Part shown: positions 38,346 through 63,000 of the stretch, one piece after another
Layout of the letters: each line of letters begins with the position of its first letter
Numbering within the stretch: the stretch's first letter is position 1
Origin: Anaeromyxobacter paludicola
Lineage (GTDB): Bacteria > Myxococcota > Myxococcia > Myxococcales > Anaeromyxobacteraceae
NCBI RefSeq assembly: GCF_023169965.1
Contig: NZ_AP025592.1
Span: 3,782,001 to 3,846,000 of the forward strand
DNA: 64,000 nucleotides
Direction: 5' to 3'
Notes under the pieces: model-generated
Told to the model about the DNA's origin: nothing
Database searches by the model: none
The model's input: the letters and a program-made list of their open reading frames with translations, nothing else
Translations under genes and position numbers: made by a program

Positions 38346-38382
38346 CCCCTCCCCGTCCCTCCCCGCCCGGCGGGGAGGGGGT
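38346..38382 (-). repeat. Short GC-rich palindromic repeat, inverted orientation (pair member)
   Basis: A head of CCCCTCCCCGTCCCT precedes a palindrome with arms CCCCGCC / GGCGGGGAGGG. Read on the other strand it corresponds to the same family as 38394-38429, so the two copies 11 bases apart form an inverted pair like a BIME. It lies 20 bases after the RND pump stop. Confidence 0.75.
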
Positions 38383-38393
38383 GCCGCTGCTTT

Positions 38394-38429
38394 CCCTCTC
38401 CCGCGAAGCGGGGGAGGGTCAGGGGGGGG
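38394..38429 (+). repeat. Short GC-rich palindromic repeat, direct orientation (pair member)
   Basis: CCCTCTCCCGCG / AAGCGGGGGAGGG palindrome with the tail TCAGGGGGGGG. It ends at the base before the serS stop codon, so it occupies the convergent gap between the RND operon and serS. Confidence 0.75.
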
Positions 38430-49634: not shown

Positions 49635-49658
49635 CCCCTCCCCGCCCGGCGGGGAGGG
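49635..49658 (-). repeat. Short GC-rich palindromic repeat, inverted orientation (pair member)
   Basis: Arms CCCCTCCCCGCC and GGCGGGGAGGG, 13 bases after the hmgA stop. Forms an inverted pair with 49704-49741. Confidence 0.7.
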
Positions 49659-49703
49659 AGCGCAACGCGGCGCTCCGAGCGCGCGCCTGGGTGTCGCCTC
49701 TTC

Positions 49704-49741
49704 CCCTCTCCCGCGCCAGCGGGGGAGGGCCAGGCAGGGGG
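49704..49741 (+). repeat. Short GC-rich palindromic repeat, direct orientation (pair member)
   Basis: CCCTCTCCCGCG / CAGCGGGGGAGGG palindrome with tail CCAGGCAGGGGG, in the convergent gap between hmgA and the next hydrolase. The 45 bases between the pair members contain no gene. Confidence 0.75.
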
Positions 49742-59029: not shown

Positions 59030-60721
59030 GTGGCGGGCGAAGGAGGGCGGGTGAGCGGCAATCCGGAGGAGCTGCTGCGCAGCACGCTCGAGAAGATCGT
59101 CTTCTTCGAGTGCCGCGTGGAGCAGCTCAAGGCGGAGCTGGAGACGGCGCGCAGCCTGGCGGCGCGCGCCCAGGGCGAGGCGACCCGATCGCGGCAGCGC
59201 GAGGTGGAGCTCTCGCGGGCGGCCGCCGAGGCGCGCGCCCAGCTCGCCGACGCCCAGTCCAAGAACGCCGAGCTCCTCGAGCGGGTGCGCCTGCTCGAGG
59301 GCGAGCGCGCCCGGTTCCTCTCCGGGCTCATCGAGCAGGCGCGGGTGCAGGGCGCGCCGGGGGCCGAGGGGGACGACGGCGAGGGCGGCGCCGAGCTGGC
59401 CGGCTTCATCGCCGAGCTGCGGGCCGAGAACGTGCGGCTCGAGCGCTGGAAGCAGGCGGCGCTCTCCGCCGGGATCGCGCTCGACGACGGCGGGGCCGCG
59501 CCGCTCGCCTCGCTCCGCGCCGCGCCGGCGCCGCTCGAGCAGGTCGCGGCCCGCTTCGAGGAGGAGGGGCGCACCGCGGTCTCGGCCGCGGAGGCCCGCA
59601 CCCTCGAGAGCACGCTGCCGACCCGCGCCGACCGCGCCCTCTACGAGGCCTCGATGGACGACCTCGCCTCGGCCGACGCCGGGGCGCGCCGCCGGGCCGC
59701 CGACTGCCTCAAGGCGCTCGCGTCCAGGGCCGCCGCGCCGCTCGTGGCCGCCGCGCTCGGGCGCGAGCGGGACGAGGGCGTCAAGATCGCGCTCCTCGGC
59801 TCCATCGCCGCCCTCGCCGGCGACGAGGCGGTGGACCTCGCCGCGCGCGAGCTCCAGGACCACCGGCCCGCCGTCCGCGCCGCCGCCCTCGAGGCGGTGA
59901 ACGCGCTCGCGAAGGGCCGGGCGGAGCCGCACCTCGCCGGCGCGCTCGGCGACCCGAGCCCGCTCGTGCGCCGCCGGGCCGCGCTCCTGCTCGGGTTCGT
60001 GCCCGGGCCCGGCGCGGACGACGCCCTCGCCTCGGCGCTCCTCGACCAGGACGCCGGCGTGGCGCGCGCCGCGGTGTCGGCCCTCTCCGGCCGGCCCAGC
60101 GCCCGCGCGCAGGGCGCGCTGGCCCGCGCCGTGGACCACCGGGACCCGACGGTCCGCGCCGCCGCCGCCCGCGCCGTGGCGCGCTGGGCCGGCGAGGTGG
60201 TGGACGTCACCGGCACCGAGGCCGACCGCCGCCGGGCCGCCCGGCGCATCTCGGAGAAGCTGGCCGGGATGACCGGCGAGGCGCTCCGGGGCGCGGTGAT
60301 GCGGACCGCCCGCGCCCCGGTGAGGCCCGCCTCGACCCCTCCCCCCGCGCGCGGGGAGAGGGAGAGCCTCGTTTCGGCCCCCGCGGCTTCCACTTCAGTG
60401 GCTTCCGCTTCCGCGGCGCCCCCGCGCCCCGCGCAGCCCACCCTCCCCGCCGGAGGGGGGGAGGGCCGGGGAGGGGTGGCGCCTGCCGCCCGCGAAGCCG
60501 CCCCCGCCCCCCGCCGCGCCCCCGTCCACGCCGCCTCTCCCGCCGCCCGGGCCCTCATGACCGCGGTGCTCGGGGAGGTGCGCGCCAGCCTGCGCGGCGA
60601 GACCGTCGCCGGGATCACCTCGTCCCTCTCCGCCGAGCCCCTCGAGGTGGAGGCCGCCCTGCGCGCGCTCGTGGCGCAGGGAGCGCTGGTGGCCCGCGGC
60701 CCGCGCTTCTTCATGAGCTAG
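59030..60721 (+). CDS. pomY: PomY-like division-site positioning protein (coiled coil + HEAT repeats)
   Basis: A 563-residue cytosolic protein. A coiled coil covers about 12-100 (LEKIVFFECRVEQLKAELETAR onwards), HEAT-like helical repeats about 195-400 (for example VKIALLGSIAALAGDEAV, AVRAAALEAVNALAKG, VRRRAALLLGFV), a Pro/Ala-rich linker about 425-505, and a C-terminal helical domain. This order equals PomY of Myxococcus xanthus, which with PomX and PomZ places FtsZ at midcell. The linker contains two palindromic repeats in frame (60336-60367, 60441-60476). GTG 59030 is used; GTG 59051, preceded by AGGAGG, is an alternative. Gene order pomY-pomZ-pomX also matches. Confidence 0.8.
   Translation: MAGEGGRVSGNPEELLRSTLEKIVFFECRVEQLKAELETARSLAARAQGEATRSRQREVELSRAAAEARAQLADAQSKNAELLERVRLLEGERARFLSGLIEQARVQGAPGAEGDDGEGGAELAGFIAELRAENVRLERWKQAALSAGIALDDGGAAPLASLRAAPAPLEQVAARFEEEGRTAVSAAEARTLESTLPTRADRALYEASMDDLASADAGARRRAADCLKALASRAAAPLVAAALGRERDEGVKIALLGSIAALAGDEAVDLAARELQDHRPAVRAAALEAVNALAKGRAEPHLAGALGDPSPLVRRRAALLLGFVPGPGADDALASALLDQDAGVARAAVSALSGRPSARAQGALARAVDHRDPTVRAAAARAVARWAGEVVDVTGTEADRRRAARRISEKLAGMTGEALRGAVMRTARAPVRPASTPPPARGERESLVSAPAASTSVASASAAPPRPAQPTLPAGGGEGRGGVAPAAREAAPAPRRAPVHAASPAARALMTAVLGEVRASLRGETVAGITSSLSAEPLEVEAALRALVAQGALVARGPRFFMS
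60336..60367 (-). repeat. Palindromic repeat inside pomY, inverted orientation (pair member)
   Basis: CCCCTCCCCCCGCG / CGCGGGGAGAGGG within the linker, read as TPPPARGERES. With 60441-60476 it makes an inverted pair inside a coding sequence. Confidence 0.6.
60441..60476 (+). repeat. Palindromic repeat inside pomY, direct orientation (pair member)
   Basis: CCCTCCCCGCC / GGAGGGGGGGAGGG followed by CCGGGGAGGGG, 36 bases, read in frame as TLPAGGGEGRGG. It differs from the pomX copy (61984-62019) at only a few positions. Confidence 0.75.
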
Positions 60722-60734
60722 GAGCCAAGGATTC

Positions 60735-61685
60735 ATGGAGAACATCCGCTACACGCCCAAGCGCTTCGCCGAGGTCCTGGGGATCACCCAGAAGGCCCTC
60801 TTCGAGGCCGTGGGCCGGAGCGACGCCTACAGCCCCGACGACCTCGCCGCGGCGCGCGCGCTCCTGCACCGCGCCCCGCCGAAGCAGCCGGTCCGGCACC
60901 AGCTCTTCCTCAACTTCAAGGGCGGCACCGGCAAGACCAGCCTCTCCACGAGCTACGCCTTCCGGCTCGCCGAGCGCGGCCACCGGGTGCTGGTCATCGA
61001 CCTCGACAGCCAGGGCCACGCCACGAAGTGCCTCGGCAAGGAGGGCGGCAGCTTCCAGCACACGCTCTACGACGTGCTGGTCCGCAAGACGCCGCTCTCG
61101 CAGGTGACGGTGGCGACGGGCATGCCGAACCTCTCGCTCGTCCCGTCGAACCTCAAGATGAGCACCATCGACCTCGCGCTCATGCCGATGGCCGGGCGCG
61201 AGTACCGGCTGCGCAAGGCGCTCGAGGAGGCCGCGAGCCAGTACGACTACGTGGTCATGGACGCGCCGCCGTCGTTCGGGCTCCTGAACCTCAACGCCAT
61301 CATGGCGGCGACCGACCTCGTCATCCCGGTGCTGGCCGACTTCCTCTCCTACGACGGGCTCCGGCTGCTCTTCGAGACCCTGCAGGACCTCGAGACCGAC
61401 CTGTCGCACCAGCTCGAGAGCATCTCGATCGTGGTGAACGCCTACAACCAGACCTTCAAGATCGCCCGCGAGGCGCTCTCGGCGCTGAAGGAGCACTACC
61501 CCGAGTACCTGCTCGGCAGCGTGATCCGGCAGTGCACCAAGTTCGCCCAGGCGTCGAGCGAGGGCTGCCCGATCTTCGGCTACGACCCCGACTCGAAGGG
61601 CGCGGCCGACATCGAGGCGATGCTCGACGAGGTCCTGCGGAAGATCGGCAACACGGGCGCCCAGGCGGGCGCGGCTGGAGCGTAA
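60735..61685 (+). CDS. pomZ: PomZ-like ParA/MinD ATPase
   Basis: A 316-residue ParA-family ATPase that, in Myxococcus, dimerises on ATP, binds DNA non-specifically and moves the PomXY cluster to midcell. The deviant Walker A is Lys62-Gly-Gly-Thr-Gly-Lys67-Thr, with the signature Lys62; Walker A' has Asp89 and Asp91 (VIDLDSQGHATKCL); Walker B is YVVMDAPPSFGLL. The N-terminal 50 residues (YTPKRFAEVLGITQKALFEAVG) resemble a small MerR/HTH-like domain. Encoded 13 bases after pomY and three bases before pomX. An ordinary chromosomal parA would have parB next to it; none is here. Confidence 0.88.
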   Translation: MENIRYTPKRFAEVLGITQKALFEAVGRSDAYSPDDLAAARALLHRAPPKQPVRHQLFLNFKGGTGKTSLSTSYAFRLAERGHRVLVIDLDSQGHATKCLGKEGGSFQHTLYDVLVRKTPLSQVTVATGMPNLSLVPSNLKMSTIDLALMPMAGREYRLRKALEEAASQYDYVVMDAPPSFGLLNLNAIMAATDLVIPVLADFLSYDGLRLLFETLQDLETDLSHQLESISIVVNAYNQTFKIAREALSALKEHYPEYLLGSVIRQCTKFAQASSEGCPIFGYDPDSKGAADIEAMLDEVLRKIGNTGAQAGAAGA

Positions 61686-61688
61686 GAG

Positions 61689-62807
61689 ATGAGAAAGGCC
61701 TTCGACGCCAACGTGCCCAAGCTGAAGCCGCGCCTCAAGGGCGTGGGCTCGGTGGTGAGCCTCGCCGGGAGCGAGCCGGCCCAGCCCGAGCCGGAGCTCC
61801 CGATGCCCACGGTCGAGGAGGAGGAGGCCGCGCCGGTCCCCGCCGAGGCGCCGCCGGTGAGCTTCGCGGAGCCCTCGCCGGCCGAGCTGCTCGCGACCGC
61901 GGCCGCGGAGGTCGCGCCGGCCGAAGTCGCCGCCCCGGCGCCCGAGGTCATGCGAGCGCCGGCGCCGACCGCCGCGCCGATTCCCCTCCCCGCCGGAGGG
62001 GGGGAGGGCCAGGGAGTGGTGGCGCCCGCCGCCACCGCGCTGCCCGAGGCGCCCGCGGCCAGGGTCGCCGCACCGGCCGCCGCTCCCGCGCCGCCCGCAG
62101 CCGCCGCCGCGCCGCAGCCGCCGCCCCCGCCCGGCTCCCTCGAGGACCGCCGCGCTCGCCTCGAGCGCGTGAAGCGCCGGGTGGCCGACGCCGCGCGCAC
62201 CCCGCGCCCGGTCCCGGCCGCGCCGGCCGAGCCGGGGCGCGCCGCCGAGAGCGCGCTCTCGCTCGTGCAGGAGCTCGAGGCCCAGCTCTCGCGCGCCCGC
62301 GAGACCGAGGCCGCGCTCCGCGCCGACCTCGACGAGGCCCGCGGCGAGGTGGCGCGCGGCGCCGTCGAGCTGCGCGAGGCCGCCGGCCGGGGGGAGGAGC
62401 TCACCCGCCAGCTGGAGGAGAAGCGGGCGGTCCTCTCCGAGCTGCTCGCCGAGATGAACGCGCTCGAGGCCGAGCGCGACGAGGCGGTGGAGCGGGCGCA
62501 GGCCCTCGCCGCCATCGACGAGGAGCGGCAGTCGCTGCTCGACGCGCTCGGCACCCGGGTGGAGGAGCTGGAGAAGCGGGGCGAGGAGGCGCGCGCCGAG
62601 CTGGAGCGGCTCTCCGACGACCTCGACCAGCGCGCCTCCGACGGCGCGCGGCTGCGCGCCGCGCTGGCCCAGGTCACGCGCGAGCGGGACGACCTCTCCC
62701 GCGAGTCGGCGCAGATCCGCCGCGAGCGCGACGAGCTCGCCGAGACCAAGAAGGCGCTCGAGCAGGTGCACCAGGCGCTGGCCCAGGCCCGCTCGCGGCT
62801 GGGCTGA
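61689..62807 (+). CDS. pomX: PomX-like scaffold protein
   Basis: A 372-residue protein. The basic N-terminal peptide MRKAFDANVPKLKPRLKG has Lys13 and Arg15; the corresponding residues in Myxococcus xanthus PomX are reported to activate PomZ ATPase, from memory of the published work. An Ala/Pro-rich disordered segment covers about 30-155, then a long coiled coil about 160-372 (LSRARETEAALRADLDEARGEV onwards). This architecture equals PomX, which polymerises into the scaffold of the Pom cluster. A palindromic repeat lies in frame in the disordered part (61984-62019, PLPAGGGEGQG). Three bases after pomZ. Confidence 0.83.
   Translation: MRKAFDANVPKLKPRLKGVGSVVSLAGSEPAQPEPELPMPTVEEEEAAPVPAEAPPVSFAEPSPAELLATAAAEVAPAEVAAPAPEVMRAPAPTAAPIPLPAGGGEGQGVVAPAATALPEAPAARVAAPAAAPAPPAAAAAPQPPPPPGSLEDRRARLERVKRRVADAARTPRPVPAAPAEPGRAAESALSLVQELEAQLSRARETEAALRADLDEARGEVARGAVELREAAGRGEELTRQLEEKRAVLSELLAEMNALEAERDEAVERAQALAAIDEERQSLLDALGTRVEELEKRGEEARAELERLSDDLDQRASDGARLRAALAQVTRERDDLSRESAQIRRERDELAETKKALEQVHQALAQARSRLG
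61984..62019 (+). repeat. Palindromic repeat inside pomX, direct orientation
   Basis: Thirty-six bases nearly identical to the pomY copy at 60441-60476 and read in the same frame of the repeat, giving PLPAGGGEGQGVV in the disordered region of PomX. Confidence 0.75.
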
Positions 62808-62829: not shown

Positions 62830-62866
62830 CCCCTCCCCATCCCTGCCCGCCCGGCGGGGAGGGTGT
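62830..62866 (-). repeat. Short GC-rich palindromic repeat, inverted orientation (pair member)
   Basis: Head CCCCTCCCCATCCCT then arms GCCCGCC / GGCGGGGAGGG, 22 bases after the pomX stop; very similar to 38346-38382. Forms a wide inverted pair with 62965-63000. Confidence 0.75.
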
Positions 62867-62964
62867 GCCGCGCGGCGCTTCGTTCCCCGCAGGGCCTGGC
62901 GAGCCGCCGAACACTCATCCGCGGCGGGCTGGAGACGCTGCGCCCCGCGTGACCCGAGGCATCC

Positions 62965-63000
62965 CCCCTCCCGCGGAGCGGGGGAGGGCGAGGGAGGGGG
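62965..63000 (+). repeat. Short GC-rich palindromic repeat, direct orientation (pair member)
   Basis: CCCCTCCCGCG / GAGCGGGGGAGGG palindrome with the tail CGAGGGAGGGGG, identical in its tail to the 51205 copy. It ends 24 bases before the sthA stop. Confidence 0.8.

Follow-up and report, generated by a model that had tools for sequence, protein, structure and literature searches.

Two short segments in the Ala/Pro-rich linkers of the PomY and PomX homologues of Anaeromyxobacter paludicola (60441-60476 in pomY and 61984-62019 in pomX) are members of a REP-like family of ~107 copies. The reading that best accounts for them, and that is very probable, is that they are resident REP-like mobile palindromes, and that the linkers are permissive stretches in which each lineage's own palindrome family collects. 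The inserts themselves are most likely tolerated filler, not a designed peptide. Capture of REPs in frame within genes is already known; new here are its recurrence in both members of an interacting, condensate-forming pair, and evidence from a sister species for such capture in a GC-rich myxobacterial lineage.

The pom locus and its palindromes

The window, which is the whole stretch of DNA that was analysed, comprises 64,000 nt of the forward strand of A. paludicola (GCF_023169965.1, NZ_AP025592.1, 3,782,001-3,846,000; the genome is G000 below). It harbors the cluster pomY-pomZ-pomX, with HEAT repeats in PomY, a ParA/MinD-type ATPase, and a coiled-coil PomX that carries the N-terminal peptide. 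The PomY homologue consists of an N-terminal coiled-coil-like region, the HEAT repeats, an Ala/Pro-rich linker and a conserved C-terminal stretch of ~60 aa, and the PomX homologue of the conserved N-terminal peptide MRKAFDANVPK, an Ala/Pro-rich linker and a coiled coil. The Myxococcus xanthus Pom system has the same gene set and the same PomX and PomY architecture: in the cited passages, its PomX is an Ala/Pro-rich N-terminal region followed by a coiled coil (PMC7993993), and its PomY contains a coiled coil, HEAT repeats and an IDR (PMC7993993, PMC10307791), the last of which modulates phase separation (PMC10307791). Palindromic inserts, present here, are not noted for the M. xanthus proteins in those passages of the two papers. 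Orthologues of pomY are alignable and lie beside pomZ in the relatives whose contigs extend that far, and pomZ, which is without repeats, served as the orthology anchor and was found in 33 of the 41 genomes searched. Gene boundaries were set with a purpose-written gene caller based on codon usage. The features, in window coordinates, are as follows.

59051-60721, + strand: pomY homologue (codon-model gene call; Pfam HEAT_2, 6.3e-13; adjoins pomZ)
60337-60362, within the segment 60336-60367, no strand assigned: pomY-linker palindrome that shares the stem type but lacks the family tail (13-bp arms, 92% paired)
60441-60476, + strand: pomY-linker copy of the REP-like element (nhmmer, intergenic-only profile, 22.7 bits; family pattern with 0 mismatches)
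60735-61685, + strand: pomZ homologue, ParA/MinD-type ATPase (Pfam AAA_31, 1.1e-44)
61689-62807, + strand: pomX homologue (codon-model gene call; orthologues aligned)
61984-62019, + strand: pomX-linker copy of the REP-like element (nhmmer, 26.4 bits; family pattern with 1 mismatch)
62841-62863, - strand: intergenic palindrome immediately 3' of pomX, with a stem of the same type (stem scan; weak in nhmmer, 7.7 bits)
62964-63000, + strand: intergenic family member 3' of pomX (nhmmer, 41.3 bits)

A preliminary description of this DNA had noted that the direct copies in pomY and pomX are nearly identical over 36 bases and are read in the same frame. Both observations hold: 34 of 36 bases are identical, and both copies begin at codon position 2, so that the pomY copy encodes (T)LPAGGGEGRGG(V) and the pomX copy (P)LPAGGGEGQGV(V), with the translations TLPAGGGEGRGGV and PLPAGGGEGQGVV. 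The two differences between them are both nonsynonymous, with zero synonymous changes. The emphasis placed on 36 as a multiple of three is in part arbitrary, as the unit conserved over the intergenic copies spans ~41-46 nt.

The same description took the pomY palindromes to be an inverted pair. The palindrome at 60336-60367 is real, but its membership is weak: it scores 7.7 bits against the family profile (E 0.16) and the GGGAGGGG tail is missing. Judged from its sequence, it is possibly a truncated or decayed family copy at best, and its membership is insecure. No genes of the window beyond pomX and pomY have stems of this type.

In a genome of 74% GC, with linkers of low complexity, Ala/Pro/Gly coding sequence could conceivably imitate a palindrome by chance. 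This explanation is exceedingly improbable for the pom stems, as the real pomX and pomY contain 3 stems and codon-shuffled versions of the two genes a mean of 0.045, never reaching 3 in 2000 shuffles, and as the profile E-values are 2.5e-7 (pomX) and 3.6e-6 (pomY). A chance origin is thereby refuted for the two full copies; 60337-60362 may be such a fortuitous stem.

A resident REP-like family and its known counterparts

The 36-nt family pattern, with ≤1 mismatch allowed, matches the genome (4.59 Mb, one contig) 107 times, against 1 match for a reversed-pattern control, and G001, a genome of the same genus, contains 112 copies. An nhmmer profile was built from 78 intergenic copies only, leaving out those in pom. 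In this profile the family is a discrete unit with defined ends, its information content dropping to the background level beyond about -6 and +40, and with a consensus of roughly (CTTC)CCCTCTCCCGCGGAGCGGGGGAGGGMCAGGGAGGGG(G): a C-rich/G-rich stem followed by the asymmetric GGGAGGGG tail. The pomX copy scores 26.4 bits and the pomY copy 22.7 bits against it; the best reversed-window match reaches 15.2 bits. The family is thus a short imperfect palindrome of high copy number that is mainly intergenic, with 78 of the 104 copies examined lying outside genes in a genome that is 92% coding. The supposition that the pom segments have intergenic relatives is in this way borne out.

The near-identity of the two pom copies may also have a more local origin, in that a local duplication or a gene conversion may have made one from the other, in place of two separate insertions. 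This is a serious possibility, albeit somewhat improbable. An exact 23-nt stem variant occurs only thrice in the genome, two of the occurrences being those in pomY and pomX, 1543 bp apart, and the similarity between pomY and pomX runs on to 82% over 78 nt. However, the third copy of this variant, which lies in an intergenic gap, and one copy in G001 also have the downstream extension GGGGTGGCG, and because of this the extension belongs to the subtype. Furthermore, the flanks upstream of the pomY and pomX copies are unlike, and several copies gather at other loci too.

Among described elements, GTAG- and CGTC-tagged REPs are, like this family, short, high-copy and mostly intergenic with some copies within ORFs, and their authors suggested that intragenic copies could be neutral when they lie in flexible linkers or loops (Di Nocera et al. 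2013, PMC3733652). Whereas those REPs are tagged, the consensus here carries neither GTAG nor CGTC and has the GGGAGGGG tail instead; PMC3733652 makes no mention of Anaeromyxobacter or Myxococcus. Searching Rfam with the repeat gave no match, and no report of it in Anaeromyxobacter was found in the literature searched. REPs and REPINs mobilised by RAYTs (TnpA-REP) resemble this element in having ~100 copies, a single hairpin and an asymmetric tail (PMC2817692, PMC3116915, PMC8266576). Closely spaced pairs of intergenic palindromes, similar to paired REP (BIME/REPIN) arrangements, also occur in the window, at 38357-38418 and 49636-49729.

Mobilisation would be expected to depend on an enzyme of the REP-associated tyrosine transposase (RAYT) type. 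The genome contains three Y1_Tnp matches. The best candidate is a distant RAYT-like protein, a Y1 transposase (L190:1450-2121, G000:C1:3229995 region) that scores 50.2 bits with NCBIfam NF047646, for which the cut-off is 80. Among the matches listed, no family copies lie within 30 kb of this candidate, and no RAYT gene flanked by the family element was found on inspection of this best candidate of the three.

Copies within other genes and in a sister species

The preliminary description proposed looking for the repeat in other coding regions and tabulating its frames. In the 104 copies examined with their flanks, placed by the codon-usage gene caller, 26 lie fully within genes and in frame, far under the 92% coding share of the genome (P about 1e-61). 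The 24 of these that are not in pom are spread over 23 genes that encode functionally varied proteins. They include a 2-oxoacid dehydrogenase E2 (acyltransferase), with its copy between the lipoyl and E3-binding domains, CheA, with its copy between Hpt and P2, and an ABC transporter, with its copy between the ATPase and membrane parts, as well as an MCP, a methyltransferase, the tail of an Lhr helicase, a DnaJ-domain protein, AMP-ligases and others. For hosts with Pfam domains the copies are nearly always outside these domains (a TPR protein was left unplaced), the exception being a DUF58 protein whose domain is split by its copy. In the prepilin peptidase (L118:1812-2906, - strand), two family copies lie in one stretch past the peptidase domain.

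The codon registers of the 26 coding copies are distributed unequally as 18, 7 and 1 (chi-square P 2e-4), a bias that could partly stem from the home-made gene caller. No single frame is used more often than that of the pom copies (11 of 26), and, by the frame frequencies of the genome itself, a pair of coding copies drawn at random would agree in frame in 29% of cases. The common frame of the pomY and pomX copies is therefore unremarkable.

That a near-identical peptide occurs in the same frame in two interacting proteins had suggested that the LPAGGGEG segment might have a role of its own, for example as a short motif co-opted in both partners as a mutual binding sticker. The frame sharing expected by default already weakens this proposal, and the pom frame, together with the same peptide type (xLSRxAGEGRGG / LPAGGGEG), is found in nine further coding copies of this genome whose host proteins are unrelated. 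Since the only two changes between the pom copies are nonsynonymous, and since the peptide type recurs in unrelated proteins, a role at the level of the peptide is unlikely. Relatives, moreover, have palindromes that give other peptides in other frames, and several have none. With this evidence combined, a functional motif is a highly unlikely explanation and the suggestion of a role for the shared peptide is not sustained.

Comparison with G001, the sister species, at twelve orthologous copy sites gives presence/absence evidence. The DUF58 protein has a 34-residue double insert (two palindromes) in G000 that is absent in G001, with collinear flanks. In the ABC transporter, the methyltransferase and the prepilin peptidase, the inserts are missing or shorter in G001 at the repeat, and the prepilin peptidase stretch that contains two copies is much shorter there. 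Several copy sites are common to both genomes. At genes other than pom, these comparisons demonstrate in-frame intragenic insertion, with inserts in coding genes that are absent in close orthologues. At pomX and pomY themselves no clean empty site was seen: in G001, the only relative from the same genus, contigs break at both genes, the pomY contig ending at aa 287 and the pomX contig starting just past the linker, and the linkers of the other relatives have diverged too far to be aligned. As a separate observation, cheA has one in-frame repeat in G000 (L138:476-2494) and four tandem 75-bp (25-aa) copies in G001 (L201), a local in-frame amplification of the palindrome between the Hpt and P2 domains.

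In-frame palindromes in coding genes are established for the Rickettsia palindromic elements (RPEs; Ogata et al. 2000, 2002), as presented in the cited part of PMC10969869. Going by that part, both RPEs and the present element are selfish palindromes found in frame in many unrelated genes and tolerated by the proteins. RPEs, however, are ~150 bp long and inhabit a small, reduced genome, whereas this element is GC-rich, measures 41-46 nt, has three quarters of its copies between genes and is read in several frames; it thus differs from RPEs in size and composition.

The simplest mechanism for the preferred reading of tolerated mobile palindromes would be that copies land genome-wide, that purifying selection removes any that break the frame or fall within folded domains, and that in-frame copies in disordered or inter-domain stretches survive. 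Each such event would add roughly 12-30 aa, mainly Gly, Pro, Ala, Ser, Glu and Arg, residues that are compatible with a linker, and the inserts would be close to neutral. In this sense the PomX and PomY linkers, rich in Ala and Pro, would be especially permissive, and would therefore gather whichever palindrome family inhabits the lineage.

Pom linkers across relatives

The PomX and PomY linkers cannot be aligned between genera. Palindromes of resident families are present in these linkers in 7 of 18 family genomes: in both PomX and PomY in G000, G004, G008 and G022, in PomY in G020 and G021, and in PomX in G023. They belong to three types, the C-rich/G-rich hairpin type (G000, G004 and G022), the TGAGCCTGTCGAA type (G008 and G020) and the TGAGCGTAG...AGTCGAA type (G021 and G023). 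Frames and orientations vary between genomes, and within the PomX of G008, and the encoded peptides include VVRQAHHER, LSLSKGER and TPALSPRKSAGGEGG.

G008 contains 82 copies of a palindrome that is unrelated to that of G000 (0 matches there, or 1 with a looser pattern), and four of these are in pomX/pomY. Measured against uniform placement over the whole genome, the share of copies that fall in pom is above expectation in G008 (P 1.6e-7), G022 (2/83, P 8e-4), G020 (2/31, P 1e-4), G021 (1/54, P 0.03) and G000 (2/107, P 0.002; the genome that prompted the test). The pom copies of G008 and G020, which share the TGAGCCTGTCGAA type, are counted separately here even though common descent is possible. 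In G022 the reversed-pattern control is uninformative, as the reversed pattern also matches abundantly, and residency of the repeat follows from the many identical GGAGAGGGCCGGGGTGAGGG copies. With 7 of 18 genomes, three resident repeat types and an excess over uniform expectation involved, the pom linkers are recurrent sinks for palindromes.

That both linkers are hit repeatedly, and more often than uniform placement predicts, might also mean that they are selected for length, with insertions being favoured because they adjust spacing within the Pom condensate or its multivalency. In agreement with this, the linkers of carriers trend longer, and the IDR of M. xanthus PomY modulates phase separation, according to the cited passage of PMC10307791. 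The difference in length is nevertheless not significant (medians of 153 vs 110 aa for PomX, P 0.24, and 113.5 vs 84 aa for PomY, P 0.09), the same enrichment is predicted by tolerance alone, and short, repeat-free linkers suffice in many relatives. Selection for length is therefore improbable. The bolder proposal, in which the Pom linkers are preferred and selected landing grounds for any mobile palindrome resident in a lineage, and mobile DNA repeatedly retunes the length or multivalency of the linkers of both partners in a phase-separating division complex by convergent exaptation, is likewise improbable. Of the preliminary suggestion that selfish repeats lengthen the pom linkers, what stands is that in-frame entry adds residues; the greater linker length of carriers is no more than a trend.

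The pom linkers across relatives offer a natural series of variants with which the influence of IDR length and content on a bacterial division condensate could be probed, and one interacting protein pair is identified whose disordered linkers are repeatedly struck by unrelated repeats. They also serve as a warning that a "motif" shared by disordered regions in GC-rich bacteria can be a repeat that is translated. Away from these linkers, a tandem cluster of four TGAGCGTAG-type palindromes, spaced ~87-90 bp apart, is found at G021:C94:17985-18289.
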